IMG/VR virus record: IMGVR_UViG_3300047174_000304
Location: 1 to 44,097 of that record
Source: a virus
DNA length: 44,097 nucleotides
Strand: one strand, 5' to 3'
Shown: in pieces, positions 4,334-27,207 of the stretch
Position numbering within the stretch: position 1 is the first letter of the stretch
How the letters are laid out: every line of letters starts with the position of its first letter
Translations under genes and position numbers: made by a program
Notes under the pieces: generated by a model
Seen by the model: only the letters and a program-made list of their open reading frames with translations
The model's database searches: none
Told to the model about the DNA's origin: nothing

Positions 4334-5376
4334 GAGGAGGCCTTATAGCTATCGGCGACGCCGGCGGTGCCGGCTGTTCCTGAGGTGTTGACGAAGACGC
4401 AACCAACCCCGTCGGCCGCACCCACGTTTGCGATGGGAGGCAGGGTAGTCGCGGGGGCGTTGCCGGTGATCGTCGCGGACTCCGTGGCGATGCCGGATCC
4501 GCCGGCCAAGGTCTCATAGATCGTCGCCGTGCCGGAGACGCTGGAATACACCCTGCAGACAAAGACGGTGGACCAAGCTGGGGCGATTCGGTACGTGAAC
4601 GGTGTCGCAGCGCCCGCAGCCACGGACGCCTCACCCACCGTTTCGTTGTAGCCAACATAGCCCGTGGTTGCGCCGATGATGTTGGGGCTTGATGCAAGCA
4701 CGACGCGATTGTTGCCATTGGCGTCTGCTTGGCAATCGACCCGCTCCCCGGTCGTCACGGTCGGCTGTGTGCTGTTATAGACGCAGCCGGTTTTGACCGG
4801 CGAGCCCACGTCCGCGGCGCCAGACGAGACGCTGCCGACGATGATTTCGCGGCCCGCCGTGTCGGTCAGAAGGTCTCTGGCATAGGTCCCGTCCGACCCC
4901 ATGACGCGCGTACCGCCGCCGGTCAGGGCTGATCCCGCTGTCTCGATCCCCTGATACCACCAACCTGTCGCTGCCGTGCCCGTAGCAGCCTGCGCGCCCT
5001 GTGCGCTCGTCACGGATCCGGTGATGGCCGGCAGGCTATAGACATCGACGATCTGGCGCCCGGCCGCATCGGTGAGCAGGTCTCTGGCATAGGTCCCGTC
5101 CGACCCCATGGCCCGAACGCCGCTGCCGGTCAGGGCTGAGCCGGCCGTCTCGATCCCCTGCCAAAACCAGCCGTTGGACGCGCCGCCGGCGTTCTGGGCG
5201 CCCTGATCCACGCCGATGTGCGTGCAGGTCGGGCAACCCTGGATCGTGCTGACCTTGTCCGTTCGCGGCGAGCCGGCGGCCGAGGTCGGCGTGACCGGGC
5301 CAAACTGCGTCTGGGCAAACGCCGGCGCGCCACAGAGCGCCAGCAGCGCCGCAATGAGGATGAGAAGTCTGGTCAT
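4330..5376 (-). CDS. Exported protein with an internal duplication, virion-surface candidate
   Basis: A signal peptide (MTRLLILIAALLALCGAPAFA) opens a 348-residue protein. The same frame is open upstream to 5697, but that part antisenses the neighbouring gene's coding and lacks protein character, so ATG 5376 is preferred. Two near-identical blocks (IETAGSALTG-x-G-x-R-x-MGSDGTYAR followed by DLLTD) lie about 70 residues apart. The C-terminal half is rich in Gly, Thr and Ala with beta-like alternation and includes paired cysteines. It sits between the fibre genes and the lysis cassette. A Sec signal is unusual for a tail fibre, so a secreted or envelope protein is also possible. Confidence 0.6.
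   Translation of the reverse strand: MTRLLILIAALLALCGAPAFAQTQFGPVTPTSAAGSPRTDKVSTIQGCPTCTHIGVDQGAQNAGGASNGWFWQGIETAGSALTGSGVRAMGSDGTYARDLLTDAAGRQIVDVYSLPAITGSVTSAQGAQAATGTAATGWWYQGIETAGSALTGGGTRVMGSDGTYARDLLTDTAGREIIVGSVSSGAADVGSPVKTGCVYNSTQPTVTTGERVDCQADANGNNRVVLASSPNIIGATTGYVGYNETVGEASVAAGAATPFTYRIAPAWSTVFVCRVYSSVSGTATIYETLAGGSGIATESATITGNAPATTLPPIANVGAADGVGCVFVNTSGTAGTAGVADSYKASS
4843..5172. repeat. Two diverged ~120-bp copies inside one gene
   Basis: Bases 4843-4963 and 5052-5172 match over most of their length. The longest shared stretch contains AGGTCTCTGGCATAGGTCCC and runs on into CCCATG, and both copies end near TCTCGATCCCCTG. They keep the reading frame of the exported protein and encode the two GSDGTYARDLLTD blocks. 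This is an in-frame internal duplication, not a mobile element. Confidence 0.75.
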
Positions 5377-15937: not shown

Positions 15938-16111
15938 ATGAAAAAGGCGATTGTGCTGACAGCTCTATTGGCGGTCTTTGGACCGGGTCTCGCTATGGCA
16001 GCGAGAGCAGGCGTTAAAGCCCATCGCTACCCACGCTGGCCGGCCCGACCGACACACCGGCGCCGGTTTTTGATTTGGCCGCAACCTTCGCACCCGCCGG
16101 CAAACCAGTGA
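15938..16111 (+). CDS. Possible small exported protein on the opposite strand
   Basis: A 57-residue frame opens at ATG 15938 in the only gap of the tail operon. It begins with a textbook signal sequence (MKKAIVLTALLAVFGPGLAM, cut near AMA-AR). The rest is basic and rich in Pro, Arg and Trp (RYPRWPARPTHRRRFLIWPQ). GGTGA lies three bases before the ATG. Its last 98 bases run antisense through the 3' end of the tape-measure gene, so the C-terminal half may be a shadow. Confidence 0.35.
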   Translation: MKKAIVLTALLAVFGPGLAMAARAGVKAHRYPRWPARPTHRRRFLIWPQPSHPPANQ

Positions 16112-17660
16112 TCTCCAGCGTCACATGTACGGGCGTTTCGTCGGCCGAGCGCTGCACGCGCTGGACATAGTCGCGCGTTTCCTTCGGCAGGTAATGCGGA
16201 TCAGCCAGGAAGGCCTGCTCATCGAACCGGCCGCCATGATCGGCCATGTAGTGGCGCTTGTCCCGATCGACGCGCCCAGGGCCGGCATTGTACGCGGCGG
16301 TGGCGAGCGCTTCGTCACCCTCATAATGGCCCAGCATGTCGCTGAGATACGCGCCGCCCAGCTGCCGGCTGTATCCGGCGTCGTCGCGGTAGCGCTTGCC
16401 GCTCCAAGCAATTCCGTGCTTGCGGGCGACGTCTTCAGCCGTGCCGGGCATGACCTGCATAACGCCGCGCGCGCCCTTGGGGCTCACCTGATCCTGACGC
16501 GAGCGTTCTCCCAGATGCTCGATGCGGGAGGCGAGCGCGCCCAGCGCACCGCCGAAGTGCGCCACCTCACCCGTCGCCCACCGCGTCGTACCAGCCAACG
16601 CGGCGACCCCCGCCGAGGCGGCGCCCGCCACTGTCCTGCCTATGCCCGTTCCAGCCTTGCCGTCCGCTATGTCCCGGCCCGCGGCGTTCGCTGCGTCCAG
16701 ACCAGGCTCCGCCGCTAGGGCCGCTTGGCGATCGATCAGCATACCGGCGCGGCCGGCGAGCTGCTTGCCCAGCACCCCCTTCTGCCAAATCCGGCTGGCG
16801 TCTGCGACGTCTGAGCCGGGCATGACGGCTGCGTGCTTGGCCGCGTCGTCCATCGCCGCCTGCACCGCCGCGCGTCCTTGCCTCAGCATGGGGAGCGCGG
16901 AGCTGACGCCCAAAAGGTCGGCGATGCGCGCCTGTGTCTGCGGATCCTTGTACTGCGGAATCTTGTCGGCCAAGTCTAGCAGTTCGGCGCTGGCGTCCAT
17001 GGAGCCGTCCGGCTTTTGACGCATGCTGAGGCCGAGCTGGTTCATCAGCGCAAGGACGGTGTTGTTCCGACCGTACTTGGCCTCGTGCATATTGGAGGCC
17101 AGGGACCCGAGCGCGCCGGTCGTGTCCTCCTTAGAAACGCCGAACCGCTCACCCGCCGCCTGAAACTTCTGCAGGTCCTCCGTCGTGACGCCAATCCCAG
17201 CGGATAGCCGCGCCAGCTGAGCGCCGCCCTCGGCCCAGCCCGACGCCAACTTCACCGCGCCAGCCGTCAGGGCCGCCACGATGCCGACGGCGCCGCCGGC
17301 GGCCGCCGCTACGCCGCCGATGGCGGCGCCGAGCCCAGAGCCGGACTGCGCCGCCTCACGCATTCCGCTGGCGGCCTTGACGGCCGCCTCGTGAACCTCG
17401 CCTAGGGTCGAGGTGTAGCGGGAGACGCCGGGCGCGACGGAGACCAGTCGTCCCGTGGCGCTCTTAGCCTGGTCCATGGCGCCCTTGACCTGCGCCAAGC
17501 CGGACTTGGATCCCGGCCCGTGCTTCTGGGCCTTCTGCGAGGCGACACCATAGGCCTTCGTCGCCTTGGTGAGGCCGCCCATCTGCTTTTCAGCAGACTT
17601 GACGCCCTTGGCGGTCTCGTCGGTCGCCGTGATCCGATACTTGAAGCGGTTCTCGGCCAT
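16014..17660 (-). CDS. Tape-measure protein with C-terminal lytic transglycosylase (SLT) domain
   Basis: This 548-residue protein sets tail length. ATG 17660 is preferred over GTG 17663 because it shares its A with the stop of the frameshifted chaperone (TGATG). Residues 1-110 are coiled (KGVKSAEKQMGGLTKATKAY), and Gly/Ala-rich hydrophobic stretches lie near residues 110-145 (GLGAAIGGVAAAAGGAVGIV). Residues 375-480 form an SLT domain with SPKGARGVMQVMPGTAEDVA and AYNAGPGRV. Such domains cut peptidoglycan locally during injection. The catalytic Glu is followed by Arg (GERSRQDQVS) where Ser is expected, so activity is uncertain. Confidence 0.88.
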   Translation of the reverse strand: MAENRFKYRITATDETAKGVKSAEKQMGGLTKATKAYGVASQKAQKHGPGSKSGLAQVKGAMDQAKSATGRLVSVAPGVSRYTSTLGEVHEAAVKAASGMREAAQSGSGLGAAIGGVAAAAGGAVGIVAALTAGAVKLASGWAEGGAQLARLSAGIGVTTEDLQKFQAAGERFGVSKEDTTGALGSLASNMHEAKYGRNNTVLALMNQLGLSMRQKPDGSMDASAELLDLADKIPQYKDPQTQARIADLLGVSSALPMLRQGRAAVQAAMDDAAKHAAVMPGSDVADASRIWQKGVLGKQLAGRAGMLIDRQAALAAEPGLDAANAAGRDIADGKAGTGIGRTVAGAASAGVAALAGTTRWATGEVAHFGGALGALASRIEHLGERSRQDQVSPKGARGVMQVMPGTAEDVARKHGIAWSGKRYRDDAGYSRQLGGAYLSDMLGHYEGDEALATAAYNAGPGRVDRDKRHYMADHGGRFDEQAFLADPHYLPKETRDYVQRVQRSADETPVHVTLEITGLPAGAKVAAKSKTGAGVSVGPASVGSDGL

Positions 17661-17806
17661 CACCGCTCCCCATCAGCCATGGCGCCCCACAGCCACCAGA
17701 TGTTCAGCTCAGACCATGGGTGCTCCATGATCTTAGCCGGCGTCGTCGCGTAGCGCCGAGCCAGCGCGTCTATTCGGAGACCCCACCTTTCAGGGCGGGT
17801 TGAAGA
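17660..17806 (-). CDS. Tail-chaperone extension made by -1 frameshift (GT/E'-like)
   Basis: After a -1 shift at 17806-17812 the frame adds 48 residues, beginning SSTRPERWGLRIDALARRYA and continuing TTPAKIMEHPWSELNIWWLW, then GAMADGER. The P-x-x-I-M-x-x-P-W-x-E-L-x-x-W core is the kind of sequence found in the long form of tail assembly chaperones (lambda GT, P2 E+E', Mu gp41/42). Its TGA overlaps the tape-measure ATG. The full fusion, 82 + 48 = 130 residues, would run from 18051 to 17660. This part has no good start of its own. Confidence 0.75.
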   Translation of the reverse strand, partial: SSTRPERWGLRIDALARRYATTPAKIMEHPWSELNIWWLWGAMADGER

Positions 17807-18051
17807 AAACCCGCAATGTAATTGGAGCCCTCCACGAGCTGAGAGGCCGCCATTTGCTCGATGACGGACAAAGGCTGGCCGCTGACCGTCACGACCGCTT
17901 GGATATCGGCGTCTACGCCAGCGAGCTTATCCCATTTTCGCCACTCGGCCGCGGTCGGCTCGCGCAGCGTGATCTGAGTGATCACATCGCCGGCCTTGTT
18001 CTTGATCGGCGTCTTGAATTCGATGACGAGCTCGTCGGGCTGATCGGCCAT
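17770..18051 (-). CDS. Tail assembly chaperone, short form (Mu gp41-like, Phage_TAC_7)
   Basis: ATG 18051 gives 93 residues with the family block VIEFKTPIKNKAGDVITQI followed by TLREPTAAEWRKW. The same frame is open far upstream but there antisenses or overlaps the Z-like gene. Short-form chaperones bind the tape measure and recruit tube protein, and they are made in excess over a frameshifted long form. A G-GGT-TTT slippery heptamer near codon 81 provides that shift here. The gene lies between the Z-like protein and the tape measure, as expected. Confidence 0.85.
   Translation of the reverse strand: MADQPDELVIEFKTPIKNKAGDVITQITLREPTAAEWRKWDKLAGVDADIQAVVTVSGQPLSVIEQMAASQLVEGSNYIAGFLQPALKGGVSE
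17806..17812 (-). promoter_or_regulatory. Slippery heptamer GGGTTTT for -1 frameshifting
   Basis: On the minus strand the zero-frame codons are GCG-GGT-TTT-CTT, so the heptamer is G-GGT-TTT, an exact X-XXY-YYZ match in the correct phase. Both tRNAs can re-pair after a -1 slip (GGG, TTT). It is analogous to lambda's G-GGA-AAG site. The -1 frame is open from here to 17660. Confidence 0.8.
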
Positions 18052-18059
18052 GTGCGGTC

Positions 18060-18803
18060 CTATTTTGCTGTGGCGAGTTCGTGGGCGATGGCCCGCTGCA
18101 GCGCCGAGGCGCCGTATTTGTTCAAACCGACCAGCACGACCTTGTCCGGGTCGAAACGCTTGCGGTAGGTCGGCGCCTTGGGCGTGAAGACCAGGATGGG
18201 CTCGACCTGACCGGGCGCCACCAGCTGGTAGACGCCGAGCGGACGCTTGTTGCCCGTCTTGGACTTGGCGATGAAGTAGTCGGACCGCGCGCCCTTGGCG
18301 ATCAAGCCCTTCTTGGCGAGCCGCCGCTGCGTCTTGTCGGTCATGTTCTGTTGCGGGTCGTTCTGCGCGCCCAGGCGGCTCAGGACCTGCTGGATCTGGC
18401 CACGGCTGATATTGCCGTACTGGTCGAGCTTGGCGCCGCGGCCTGGCACGATGAACTGGCCTCCGGACAGCGCCGAGAGCCTGCGTTCGAGGCGCTTCAT
18501 GCGCCGCGGGCCGCCTTCCATCTGAGGCTGCAGGTACTTCCAAGCCGGCGTGCCCTTCGGTGCGGAATCCCTGATCTCGACCCGAGCCGTGAGCCGGCGT
18601 GGGCTGGCCTTGAGCACATAGAAGGCCTTCAAGGTGAATGGCGTCGGGCGGTCGAAGACCTTTTGCATCTCGCTGACGAGGTCCTGGCGAACGTCGTTCG
18701 CGAGGATGTTCAGGGCGTTCGCGGTCGCGAACGGAATCTGGCGCTCGGTCAGCTTCTTGAACGCCTTCCGCGTCTCCCGGTCATCGACCTTGACCGCGAA
18801 CAC
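18060..18803 (-). CDS. Minor tail protein, lambda gpZ-like candidate
   Basis: The 247-residue basic protein has an N-terminal helix pair (IPFATANALNILANDVRQDL) and then the conserved FDRPTPFTLKAFYVL segment near residue 52. Long Arg/Lys-rich stretches follow (PRRMKRLERRLSALSGGQFI), with a C-terminal KAPTYRKRFDPDKV. This architecture recalls minor tail protein Z and similar tail-completion proteins. Its location between tube and chaperone is not that of a classic Mu gene, so the tail module has been modified. Tail completion is inferred. Confidence 0.6.
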   Translation of the reverse strand: MFAVKVDDRETRKAFKKLTERQIPFATANALNILANDVRQDLVSEMQKVFDRPTPFTLKAFYVLKASPRRLTARVEIRDSAPKGTPAWKYLQPQMEGGPRRMKRLERRLSALSGGQFIVPGRGAKLDQYGNISRGQIQQVLSRLGAQNDPQQNMTDKTQRRLAKKGLIAKGARSDYFIAKSKTGNKRPLGVYQLVAPGQVEPILVFTPKAPTYRKRFDPDKVVLVGLNKYGASALQRAIAHELATAK

Positions 18804-18804
18804 C

Positions 18805-19185
18805 TCAGTTCTCGGTCACGCTGGCGCCGAAGAACTCCAGGTCGAATGTGCCGTCCTCGGTGTTGACCTTGATTGGCTCGCCATTGCGGAACATGCCTTG
18901 GCCGATGATCGTCTTGCCGTTGATGAGTTCGAAGACCACGGACGAGTTCACGCAGGCGTTCAGCGCGGAGATTGACACGGCCGAGCTGTTGCGGCCTTGC
19001 CAGGTCATGGCGCCGCCGACCGGCTTCTCGCTATAGCCTTGAAACCCGTTCTGTCCCTGCAGCGGCTCCCGCATGACGTCGGAGCACTGGTAGTTCCCTT
19101 CGCCCGCAATGTCATAGGTCACGCCGTCGATGGTGACATAGCAGGTGCCGGCCAGCGCATTGGGCGCCGTGGTGTTGGTGGCCAT
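18805..19185 (-). CDS. Tail tube protein (Mu gpM-like)
   Basis: The 126-residue protein contains GTCYVTIDGVTYDIAGEGNY, the family block EKPVGGAMTWQGRNS and a C-terminal VNTEDGTFDLEFFG, all typical of the phage tail tube family (Mu gpM, P2 FII). Hexamers of this protein stack into the inner tube through which DNA passes. It follows the sheath gene with a 14-base gap. Confidence 0.9.
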   Translation of the reverse strand: MATNTTAPNALAGTCYVTIDGVTYDIAGEGNYQCSDVMREPLQGQNGFQGYSEKPVGGAMTWQGRNSSAVSISALNACVNSSVVFELINGKTIIGQGMFRNGEPIKVNTEDGTFDLEFFGASVTEN

Positions 19186-19199
19186 GGATCAGCGCTCCG

Positions 19200-20711
19200 T
19201 TATGACGTCGCCGCCGCAGCCGGCGGCATCAGCATGAATTGGGCGAGCAGCGCGAGGGTGCGCAGGCCGCCGGTGAGGATGGGATCGAAGAGGACGTCCA
19301 CCCGGCTGGGGTTGTTGGCGTTTTGCTGAATTACCAGGCCCGCCGAGAAGTCGGCGACATCCTGGACCAGGCCGGGGCTCATCGACTGGTACAGGGCGAT
19401 CAGGTAGGCGCGGATCGTATTGGGCGTGACAAAATTGGAGCCCGCAGGGATGCGCGTGCCGTTGGCCACCAGTTTGCAGCGCCCGAAGGTGCTGGTCACG
19501 CCGCTCTTCAGGGTCCGCAGGACCGCCATCAGCGTGAACATGGTCTCGACCTGCAGATACGAGTCGTCGGCCGTGCCTTGAGCGTTCTTCTGATACGTCG
19601 TGATCAGGTTCTCGATCTGAACCTGATTGCTCTGGCTGACCGTGAAGGTGCTGATGCCGTCGTAGAGCAGGGTGTTGCGCTCGGGCGGGTCGAACTGCGA
19701 CGCAATCGGCGGCGCGAGCGCGGTGGACAGCGTCAGGGTCTGCAACGGAAGAGCCGGATCGGCGCGGAGGCTGACAGCGGCCGTGCCGGCGATGTCGGCC
19801 GCCCAGATCCAGCTCGGCGTGGGGCTATCATAGAAGCCCATCTCGGTGTTGTGTTGATCGTTCAGGGTTGCGCCGTAGGTGGCCAGCGCGCCGTAAGCCC
19901 CGCGATAGGCGCCGAAGGCGTGGCCGTAGACCTGCGACTGCCAGGACCACCTGCCGTTCACGTCGCCCAGGAAGGACGTCATGGCGGCGAGCGAGGTCGC
20001 ATCGTTGTAGGGCTGCACGATGAAGTCGAACGGTTGGCTCGACAGGTTGGCCAGCGCCGCAGACAGGGTCGGATTGGTGGCCCCGCCCGACATCGGCGTC
20101 AGCGTGACCGTCAGTCCTGCGGGCGTGGTCTGCCCTGCGGACGTCCCCAGATAGTTCAGGCGCAGATCGATGTCGTTCCCGGCCAAGCCCTTGTTCAGCG
20201 CGGTCAGGGCGATCGTGCCGGCGGTGACGGCGCCGGAAACCGGGAAGGTGTTCGCCGCCGCAAGAGCGGCTTCGACAGCCGTCGCCACCTGCGCCGCCGT
20301 CATACCAGCCGTGAGGGCGACCTGCAGCAATTCGCCGGCGATGTAGAGGAAGAGCGTGCCGTTCGCCGTCACGGCGCCCGTGAAAGCGACGGCGCCTGCT
20401 GCGGCAGTCGCGCCGGCGGCGTCGGACAGCGGCAAAAGCCACACCTCCCCGAACGCATCGGCGTCGATATAGGCCTGCGCCATGAGCGCCAGCATGGAGC
20501 CGGCGCCGGCTTTGGCGGCGGCGTCGCCCGAGCCGGAACAGATCACCGGCAGGTTCGGCGTCGCCGTTCCGGCCGCCGTCATCTGGCCGATCACCAGAGC
20601 GCGCTGGGTCTGCTGATTGGTGTTGGCCTGGCTGTTGTTCAGCTCGGCGAAGAACAGCGGGATGCGCAGGTTCGCCGGGATGTTCTGGAAGGGGACCGCA
20701 TAGTCGGCCAT
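19200..20711 (-). CDS. Tail sheath protein (Mu gpL-like)
   Basis: This 503-residue protein begins with MADYAVPFQNIPANLRIPLF, the conserved start of Mu-type sheath proteins. The N-terminal half has an inserted beta domain (GAVTAGTIALTALNKGLAGN). The C-terminal half carries DGISTFTVSQSNQVQIENLI and a YLQVETMFTLMAVLRTLK block that form the conserved sheath core. Its ATG shares a base with the stop of the gp38-like gene (TGATG). Presence of a sheath shows that the virion has a contractile tail. Confidence 0.92.
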   Translation of the reverse strand: MADYAVPFQNIPANLRIPLFFAELNNSQANTNQQTQRALVIGQMTAAGTATPNLPVICSGSGDAAAKAGAGSMLALMAQAYIDADAFGEVWLLPLSDAAGATAAAGAVAFTGAVTANGTLFLYIAGELLQVALTAGMTAAQVATAVEAALAAANTFPVSGAVTAGTIALTALNKGLAGNDIDLRLNYLGTSAGQTTPAGLTVTLTPMSGGATNPTLSAALANLSSQPFDFIVQPYNDATSLAAMTSFLGDVNGRWSWQSQVYGHAFGAYRGAYGALATYGATLNDQHNTEMGFYDSPTPSWIWAADIAGTAAVSLRADPALPLQTLTLSTALAPPIASQFDPPERNTLLYDGISTFTVSQSNQVQIENLITTYQKNAQGTADDSYLQVETMFTLMAVLRTLKSGVTSTFGRCKLVANGTRIPAGSNFVTPNTIRAYLIALYQSMSPGLVQDVADFSAGLVIQQNANNPSRVDVLFDPILTGGLRTLALLAQFMLMPPAAAATS

Positions 20712-23976: not shown

Positions 23977-24621
23977 TTACTTCGTGGCGACCGGGCGGAC
24001 CTTGCCGACGGCAGCGGCGACCTGGGCGCCGAAGTCGTCGGTGGAGGCCTTGCCGGCCGGGCCGGCGCCCGGGTTTGGGACGCGCTCGGCGTTCATGCGG
24101 CTGTAGAGGCCGTCGCCGGGCCTACTGGCGGAAGCGGACGGAAGGTGGCCCAGCGTGCCGATGATCGAGGCCGCGCTGGCCTCGGTCGTCGCCAAGAGGT
24201 TTACGGCGGCGGCGACGCGGCCTTCCCCCGCGTTGGTATGACCTAGGACCTTGGTCCAGCGAGAGCGTTCGGCCTTGGTGGCTTTTTTCGCCTCGTCGTC
24301 GTCATCGTCCATGTCGGCCTTGGCCTTCTTGCCCTTAGGCTTGCCTTCCGGCTTCTCTTTTGGCCCCGCGCCGTCGCCTACCTCGCCCGTGCCCTCGCAG
24401 GCCTCGCACTCGTCGCCGTCGTCGTCCTTACCGGTGCCGTCGCATTCGGGGCAATCGGTCTCACCGTCGTCGTCCGTGTCGGACTCCTGGACGGCTTCCT
24501 TGTCGTCCTTCGGCTTCTCTTCGGTCTCTTCCGCCTTGCCCTTGGCGGCCTTGTGGCCACCCATGCCGAGCAGGTGAGCGAACGAGCGCGCAGGAGCGCC
24601 CGCCTTTGCGGTCTTCGCCAT
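23977..24621 (-). CDS. Scaffold-position protein with a DnaJ-type zinc-finger motif
   Basis: The 214-residue protein lies exactly where lambda carries its scaffold (between protease and decoration protein). Residues 31-110 are highly acidic and Lys-rich, as in scaffolds. Inside lie two CxxCxGxG knuckles, CPECDGTG and CEACEGTG, about 11 residues apart, which together form one DnaJ-like zinc centre. The C-terminal helix-rich half (TKVLGHTNAGEGRVAAAVNL) resembles cores of phage scaffold or protease-tail proteins. No J-domain is present. Zinc binding is predicted from motif; a scaffold role from position. Confidence 0.65.
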   Translation of the reverse strand: MAKTAKAGAPARSFAHLLGMGGHKAAKGKAEETEEKPKDDKEAVQESDTDDDGETDCPECDGTGKDDDGDECEACEGTGEVGDGAGPKEKPEGKPKGKKAKADMDDDDDEAKKATKAERSRWTKVLGHTNAGEGRVAAAVNLLATTEASAASIIGTLGHLPSASASRPGDGLYSRMNAERVPNPGAGPAGKASTDDFGAQVAAAVGKVRPVATK

Positions 24622-24643
24622 AGGTAGTCTCCAGGTGTTTGGG

Positions 24644-25543
24644 TTAGGCCACGGTGGCCAGAAGCGCCCGGAATGCTGCGTCCGGGGACATGACTGCGTC
24701 TGCTAGTCCGGCCTCGATGCCGGCGGCGCCCATGTAAGTTGCGGCTTTCTGACCGCGGACCGCTGAGGCGGCGATCCCGCGGTTACGGCCAACCGTGTCG
24801 TGGAGCAAATCGCCCATCGCATCGACCTCTGCCTTGATGGCGGCGAAGGCGTCATCTGTGAGGGCAACTTCGGCGCGAAGGTCGGTCTTCCGATCAGCAC
24901 CCTCGGACGTGATGAAGGTGACCTTTACGCCAGCCTTGGTCAGAGCCTCCGAAAGGTCCGCCCGCATACAGATCGTAGCGTTCGACCCTGTTCCGCCGGT
25001 GCGCGGCGTCACGACCTTGTCAGCGCCACTGGCGAGGACGTAGGCGGCCGAATAAGCCGACTCCGTCAGGATAGACCAGATCGGCTTTGAGCCGCGCCAG
25101 GCGTAGATTTCGTCCACTAGGTCGAAGCAGCCAGCAACCTCGCCACCACCGCTGTCGATGTCCAGCATGACGGCCTTGACGTCATCGTCGGTGATCGCGC
25201 TCAGGAAACTCTGACGAATGCCGTCATAGCCGGTCATACCGCTTGAGGGCCGCAGCGATCCTAGCTTATGCACGAGCGTGCCGCTGATCGGAATGCGCGC
25301 GACAGGACCGATCAGGTCATAGCCATCGTCGGTTCGCACGGTGCGCTTTGAGGCAGTGAACCCTTCGTCGTCATCGTCGTAAAACGCCAGGGTCGAGGGC
25401 GCCACACATTGGCCATCCAGGCGAACGAGCTGCGTGATGCCCAGACGCTCAGCCAGCGCCGCCATCACGACTTCGGCCTTCCGCGGATGGATCGCCAGCG
25501 GCGTGTTGAAAAGGCGCTGCGCCAGGTGCGGAAAGTCGATCAT
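24644..25543 (-). CDS. Head maturation protease, S49 (SppA/lambda gpC-like)
   Basis: The 299-residue protein has the ClpP/SppA crotonase-type fold motifs. AVMLDIDSGGGEVAGCFDLV near residue 120 is the oxyanion region, and ESAYSAAYVLASGADKVV holds the nucleophile Ser near residue 164. The basic partner is expected further on, after the GGTGS turn. The usual GSIGV stretch is changed to GSNATI. Lambda gpC removes scaffold and cuts itself during head maturation. It overlaps the portal gene by four bases and is followed by the scaffold candidate. Confidence 0.88.
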   Translation of the reverse strand: MIDFPHLAQRLFNTPLAIHPRKAEVVMAALAERLGITQLVRLDGQCVAPSTLAFYDDDDEGFTASKRTVRTDDGYDLIGPVARIPISGTLVHKLGSLRPSSGMTGYDGIRQSFLSAITDDDVKAVMLDIDSGGGEVAGCFDLVDEIYAWRGSKPIWSILTESAYSAAYVLASGADKVVTPRTGGTGSNATICMRADLSEALTKAGVKVTFITSEGADRKTDLRAEVALTDDAFAAIKAEVDAMGDLLHDTVGRNRGIAASAVRGQKAATYMGAAGIEAGLADAVMSPDAAFRALLATVA

Positions 25544-27207
25544 TCGGCCTCCGGCTTCTTTGCCGACTCGTTAGCGGGAGCGCCCACCTGCGGAGAGGAA
25601 AGCGGCAGTCCCCGCTTGAGCGTGGCCTGCTGCTCGACCTGCTGCTGGTCCAGTATGTCTTCCCAGTTCTGACCGGACACCTCCGCAACCTCGTCTTCCA
25701 AGGTCGTAAGGTGAGCGCCGAGGCCCATGATGGCGCCCTGACGGTCAGCGACGGGATCGACCCAGCCGCGGCCAGGTCCCAGCCACTTGCACGCCGAATA
25801 GGCCTGCCGGCACTCGATGAAGCGCGGCGCACCGTTGGGCAGGAGGTCGTCCAGCTCGCCGAGCTCCATGATCTCTTCCACAAGGGCGGCGCGGATGGGC
25901 GTTCCGAAGCCTGCGCCGAAGTTGGCGCGGCGTCGGTGGATCGTTTTCCAGGCGTCCAGCAGTGCGGCCCGCATCGACGAATAGTTGGTGTCAGAATAGT
26001 CGCCCGTAACCCACTGAGAGGCCGTGCCGGCCGCCTGGCTGGTGTTGCGCAGGACCGCCTTCTCGAAGTTGGCGAAGTTCGGATTGGGCCGATCAGGGCT
26101 AACCATTTTAAAGGTCTCGCCCGGGTAGGTCTGAGTGATCTGTGTGTTGCCGACCATTGTGCGGCGTTCACGGTGGAAGGCGCTGCGGTCGTCTTGGTAG
26201 GTGCGCATGCCGTCGAGGCCTTCGCCGCCGACGTCTTCGCCCAGCGCTTCCTTCAGCAGGCTTTCGTCGAAGGGGCTCTCGATGATCGCGGCGAAAATGG
26301 CGTTGATCAGAGCGGCGTCCAGCTCAGCGACGTCGTACCGGAAGAGCATCTTCATGCGCTGAAGGACCGACGTGAAGATGCCGTTTCCGCCCCTGTGTTG
26401 GCTGGCTTGGTCAGGCTCGAAATAGTGGACCACTATCGGGCGACCCCAATCGGTCTCACGCGCGATGTACTCCCATGTCACGCTGTCGCCCGCCGCCCAG
26501 TAGTCGTTCATGTGGGCTTTGCGGATGTGGTAACCGACGGCCGCGCCGTACTCGTCCACCTCGACCCCGCCGCGAACGGTGCGCCAGTCGAAACGCTGTT
26601 GCGGGTTGGACAGGCGATCAGGGTCGATCAGCTGAACAGCGGTCGCATACTTGGCGCGGCCAGGGCCTATCCGCTCGGGAAGCCAAGGCAGGATCGCTAA
26701 GGCGTCGTTGTCGATCAGCAGGTGCCGAAACGCCACGCCGAAAATGAGCGGCATCCAGCTGGAGCGCTGTGCGTCGCAGTAACGGCCCGTGTGATCGTCG
26801 GCCCAGTCCCTCCACTTCGCATCCAGCGCTCGCCCGTACTCATCGGCCCACACGGCGTCGAAGGTCCGTATCCCCGAATAGGTCGCGAGCGCCCGATAGT
26901 CGGGTTTGGCGATCGGCCGGAACGTCGCCCCGATGGCGTTGTCCTGAATTCGCGTGATCGTGCCGGACGCCCAGCCATCGTTTCGGGCAAGGTCGCGGGA
27001 CCGGGCGACGATCTGATCGCGGTAGGGATTAAGGTTGACGTCGGCAGAGTTGAGGCTCGGCCGCCATGTCGCGGTATGCTCGCCGTCATAGTCGGCGGCG
27101 TCGTAGGGGACGTTGCGGTTTCCGGCGAGCGCCGACACGCGGTTGACCTGGCGCCGCGCGACGCCCCCGCCGTCATAGGACCTCGGGTCGCGGATGATGC
27201 GAACCAT
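25540..27207 (-). CDS. Portal protein (lambda gpB family)
   Basis: This 555-residue protein fits Phage_portal_2. An early segment RSRDLARNDGWASGTITRIQ, then RPIAKPDYRALA, is followed by a DNDALAILPWLPERIG block near residue 165. GETFKMVSPDRPNPNFANFE lies near residue 370, just before a long helical region (SSMRAALLDAWKTIHRRR). Twelve copies form the ring through which DNA is packaged and to which the tail joins. Its ATG overlaps the gpW-like stop as TAATG. Confidence 0.9.
   Translation of the reverse strand: MVRIIRDPRSYDGGGVARRQVNRVSALAGNRNVPYDAADYDGEHTATWRPSLNSADVNLNPYRDQIVARSRDLARNDGWASGTITRIQDNAIGATFRPIAKPDYRALATYSGIRTFDAVWADEYGRALDAKWRDWADDHTGRYCDAQRSSWMPLIFGVAFRHLLIDNDALAILPWLPERIGPGRAKYATAVQLIDPDRLSNPQQRFDWRTVRGGVEVDEYGAAVGYHIRKAHMNDYWAAGDSVTWEYIARETDWGRPIVVHYFEPDQASQHRGGNGIFTSVLQRMKMLFRYDVAELDAALINAIFAAIIESPFDESLLKEALGEDVGGEGLDGMRTYQDDRSAFHRERRTMVGNTQITQTYPGETFKMVSPDRPNPNFANFEKAVLRNTSQAAGTASQWVTGDYSDTNYSSMRAALLDAWKTIHRRRANFGAGFGTPIRAALVEEIMELGELDDLLPNGAPRFIECRQAYSACKWLGPGRGWVDPVADRQGAIMGLGAHLTTLEDEVAEVSGQNWEDILDQQQVEQQATLKRGLPLSSPQVGAPANESAKKPEAE

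Follow-up and report, generated by a model that had tools for sequence, protein, structure and literature searches.

The contractile tail module and its chaperone gene

The window analysed here, a stretch of 44,097 nucleotides from the IMG/VR virus record IMGVR_UViG_3300047174_000304, carries a Mu-like contractile tail module on the minus strand, with genes in the order sheath, tube, minor tail protein, chaperone, tape measure with an SLT domain, DNA circularisation and baseplate. The tail sheath (19200..20711; phrog_165, E 1.5e-170) and tail tube (18805..19185; PF10618, E 1.1e-24) genes are followed by that of a minor tail protein (18060-18803; phrog_1924) and, beyond the chaperone, by that of the tape measure protein (16014..17663; phrog_2276 tail length tape measure, PF01464 SLT), for which ATG 17660 and the same-frame GTG 17663 are alternative start candidates. 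The chaperone gene lies between the tube and tape measure genes, and one extra gene, 18060-18803, separates it from the tube. This gene is additional to the arrangement in Mu, SfV, phiNP and BZS1, where the tube adjoins the chaperone; the tube-chaperone gap of the closest relative, locus L008 (about 4385-5170), is of about the same size.

The 0-frame ORF of the chaperone (17770..18051, minus strand) runs from ATG 18051 to TAG 17770 and encodes 93 residues that match PF10109 (Phage_TAC_7, E 5.6e-7) with 30 bits, above the gathering cut-off of 25, as well as the tail protein families phrog_166 and phrog_103. Close to its 3′ end the codons GCG GGT TTT CTT place a GGGTTTT heptamer (17806..17812, minus strand) in the X-XXY-YYZ phase, the only in-phase canonical heptamer across the ten structural genes scanned. 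The -1 frame extension (17660..17806, minus strand) consists of 48 codons (17806-17663, SSTRPERWGLRIDALARRYATTPAKIMEHPWSELNIWWLWGAMADGER) and a TGA stop (17662-17660), both frames being read over the double-coded stretch 17770..17806, and the predicted fusion comprises 82 + 48 = 130 residues. The last base of the TGA, the A at 17660, is also the first of the tape measure ATG (TGATG). A sequence-only reading of this DNA had already proposed an exact GGGTTTT heptamer in the right phase, 48 further open residues yielding a 130-residue fusion, and the overlap of the extension's stop with the tape measure start, and all of these held when we read the window codon by codon.

One sequence would not settle the question of a frameshift, because in-phase heptamers also arise by chance: when the final 25 codons of the chaperone were resampled synonymously with the window's own codon usage, an in-phase heptamer of any kind appeared in 4.8 % of trials, GGGTTTT in 0.8 %, and a heptamer together with a -1 frame open to the 0-frame stop in 3.7 %. 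Taken alone, the heptamer of the window is suggestive only. A perfect inverted repeat (17795-17814; GCGGGTT, 6-nt loop, AACCCGC) encloses the heptamer, and L008 has a similar but shorter one (GGCGGG ... CCCGCC); it may merely reflect the Pro-Ala codons.

Conservation of the slippery site and of the -1 frame

Direct searches with the chaperone sequence alone found no relatives of it. Since the chaperone is too divergent for such searches, loci were collected through the better conserved sheath and tube, a choice that involves no selection for the heptamer. A chaperone profile was then run on 252 sequences, the window among them, and located the gene in 242, of which 204 were non-redundant over the junction. 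An in-phase canonical heptamer lies within the -1-open stretch in 172 of these 204 loci; 76 have GGGTTTT, most of the others TTTTTTN and a few GGGAAAN. Within the last 110 nt of the gene any canonical heptamer was in phase in 143 loci against 15 and 12 in the two other phases, and GGGTTTT in 74 against 0 and 0. The loci are mutually related and these counts are not independent, although relatedness does not explain the contrast between phases. Beyond the 0-frame stop, 203/204 loci have no -1 stop for at least 50 nt (for the -2 frame the number is 100). Of 191 loci, 188 have the -1 stop within 20 nt of a start codon for the tape measure gene. According to the sequence-only reading, a -1 frame interrupted by stops in relatives, or an unconserved site, would count against a frameshift; the figures of 203 open frames, 172 in-phase heptamers and 76 copies of GGGTTTT are the reverse of these.

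The tail tube of L008 is 78 % identical to that of the window, and L008 shares both the GGGTTTT heptamer, placed at the same offset, and the TGATG overlap; its extension likewise has 48 residues and is 52 % identical. Between the two, dN/dS over the extension is 0.33/0.77 = 0.43 in the -1 frame; for the part past the 0-frame stop it is 0.30/0.75 in the -1 frame, while in either other frame dN is the larger of the two. Relatives compared in 41 non-overlapping pairs give an extension dN/dS of 0.16 for the -1 frame, as against 1.68 for the 0 frame. It follows that the extension is a selected protein sequence, kept by purifying selection when read in the -1 frame. An origin of the open -1 frame and its heptamer by chance, through an error of sequencing or from the decay of a gene would fit the 4.8 % of resamplings with an in-phase heptamer, but is contradicted by the arrangement common to L008 and 204 relatives and by the purifying selection on the -1 reading, and we give this explanation almost no weight.

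The extension of the window belongs to a sub-family with L008, L009, L012, L062, L186 and L189 that has the pattern RPxxW...P.E....PWS.LN.WW. The 48 residues alone had no match in Pfam or PHROG, and the extension profile gave no meaningful match to solved structures. In an Azospirillum prophage (L031, 6120-6248) the -1 extension has lost the C-terminal half that is otherwise conserved, as though this copy had decayed.

Is the extension a separate gene?

The extension could be a separate small gene, translated from its own start or by translational coupling, next to which the heptamer would be incidental. Coupled reinitiation is common in phage operons, and the window extension does contain an in-frame ATG at 17728. 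Initiation there would yield a 22-residue peptide, omitting more than half of the extension, and the codon is not conserved, being CTG in L008. An ATG early enough to leave at least 35 codons is present in only 16 of 172 relatives, and any start codon so placed in 48. A separate gene would also leave the phase bias of GGGTTTT unexplained, and we consider it very improbable.

These observations qualify the sequence-only claim that the extension has no start. The region ahead of the tape measure gene is indeed left empty in the eight annotated records that we examined, all of which combine a chaperone gene with a Mu-like sheath match (Mu, SfV, phiNP, BZS1, phiKM1, phiAP1, BgVeeders33 and AH07); the ATG at 17728 is nevertheless present in the window, albeit replaced in L008.

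Direction of the shift and candidate stimulators

The change of frame might instead be brought about by RNA polymerase slipping on a homopolymer run, or by a -2/+1 movement of the ribosome as in Mu, which uses -2 at the same gene (PMC5009743). Transcriptional slippage is unlikely because the run is of only four T in the window, and it is usually of four or six in relatives. A Mu-type -2 frameshift was considered and rejected for the window, where a stop closes the -2 frame four codons past the site; among the 204 relatives it is open for at least 90 nt past the 0-frame stop in 57, against 195 for the -1 frame. Neither route seems at all plausible to us as the source of the extension.

A Shine-Dalgarno-like GGAGG (17829..17833, minus strand) lies 16 nt upstream of the heptamer and is a weak candidate for a stimulator. 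Of 203 loci, 118 have a Shine-Dalgarno-like 4-mer at a distance of 4-18 nt upstream of the slip, where 70.6 would be expected from synonymous resampling, a modest excess that may point to a frameshift stimulator and that we treat as a lead only. A possible 6-bp hairpin beginning 6 nt downstream of the heptamer (17782..17799, minus strand) found no support as a stimulator; its fold has a z of -1.2 in the window and it is not predicted in L008. Over the 172 loci with a heptamer we found no enrichment of downstream folds (mean z -0.65, against -0.72 in the upstream control).

The exact heptamer appears not to be indispensable across the family, because 32 of the 204 relatives lack a canonical heptamer and most of these keep the extension. 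Nineteen loci that keep the -1 extension without a canonical heptamer (L002, L021, L022, L032, L049, L054, L055, L077, L079, L083, L099, L110, L134, L149, L154, L160, L169, L171 and L176) come mostly from Paraburkholderia and relatives and have a two-domain chaperone. All 19 read GGT TTT CAG at the expected place with a C before it (C-GGT-TTT-C); GGT and TTT are minority codons in these loci, with an expected joint frequency of 0.03, the loci again being related and not independent. The C-GGT-TTT-C motif is possibly a non-canonical slip site. That the family uses an upstream Shine-Dalgarno-like stimulator, as in dnaX, and that this sub-clade in addition shifts at C-GGT-TTT-C, where only the A-site tRNA would fully re-pair, is a tentative combination that we hold to be possible but on balance doubtful.

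Proposed mechanism

We read the chaperone of the window as a tail-assembly chaperone of the P2 E/E+E′ type with a -1 ribosomal frameshift, to which we assign a probability of about 0.95, slippage being what we infer from the conserved arrangement described above. Most ribosomes would stay in the 0 frame and produce the 93-residue short form, while a minority would slip back by one base on G-GGU-UUU and continue in the -1 frame, the P-site tRNA-Gly re-pairing from GGU to GGG and the A-site tRNA-Phe from UUU to UUU. The product of slippage would be the 130-residue fusion, its last 48 residues forming an E′/T-type domain. If the two forms work as lambda gpG/gpGT do (PMC5009743), the N-terminal part that they have in common would bind the tape measure protein, and the C-terminal domain, rare because only the fusion carries it, would recruit tail-tube subunits. 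For the phage of the window we infer both the efficiency of slippage and the role in assembly, the latter by analogy with lambda.

Comparison with known tail frameshifts

The conserved tail-gene frameshift was established by Xu, Hendrix and Duda in 2004, according to the papers that cite it (PMC2628397, PMC5009743, PMC3483164), and the window offers one more example of a phage mechanism known for decades, well supported and not a discovery. For the field its value lies in confirmation and in better annotation of a conserved recoding event, as record annotators still miss the extension, which P2 has as a joined gene.

Mu gp41, after which the sequence-only reading had labelled the chaperone, resembles it in the order of genes around sheath, tube, chaperone and tape measure, but shifts by -2 (PMC5009743) and was not recovered by the chaperone profile. 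The likeness in gene order stands, and the proper comparison is with P2 E/E+E′. For phage KS10 (L258, KS10 24400-26600) no frameshift region is reported in its paper (PMC2628397), but an open -2/+1 frame of at least 68 codons spans the 3′ end of the chaperone (about 1000-1205) and terminates where the tape measure begins. To judge from this open frame, a -2 or +1 shift like that of Mu is possible for the KS10 chaperone.

In lambda the slippery site is GGGAAAG, compared with GGGTTTT in the window. The likeness drawn here to lambda gpG/gpGT is one of mechanism, and consists in the position before the tape measure gene and in a -1 slip that yields a minor fusion (PMC5009743). The GGGTTTT heptamer itself has been proposed as the frameshift site of the tape measure chaperone of Burkholderia phage PhiE067 (ORF16/16.1; PMC7266877). 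That protein is longer (204 aa), and we liken the two through the published prediction at exactly this heptamer rather than through sequence.

The closest parallel is P2 gpE/gpE+E′, with which the window shares a PF10109 short form, P2 E being a member of that family, a -1 shift late in the gene and an extension reaching the tape measure gene. P2 E′ is itself a strong member of PF06528 (Phage_P2_GpE). The 48-residue extension of the window alone is undetected by PF06528, but its family is homologous to E′: a profile of 30 extensions aligned to P2 E′ with an hhalign probability of 96.2 (E 2.3e-9), and six of the 30 members matched PF06528. Agreement with P2 E/E′, as put forward from sequence alone, is thus borne out by the homology of the extension family. 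The P2 record NC_001895 annotates the -1 shift as a joined gene, and its site reads GTC GGT TTT TTG, so that GGT TTT occurs in both sites while the heptamer is TTTTTTG in P2, as also predicted for Burkholderia P2-like phages (PMC3091744), and GGGTTTT in the window.
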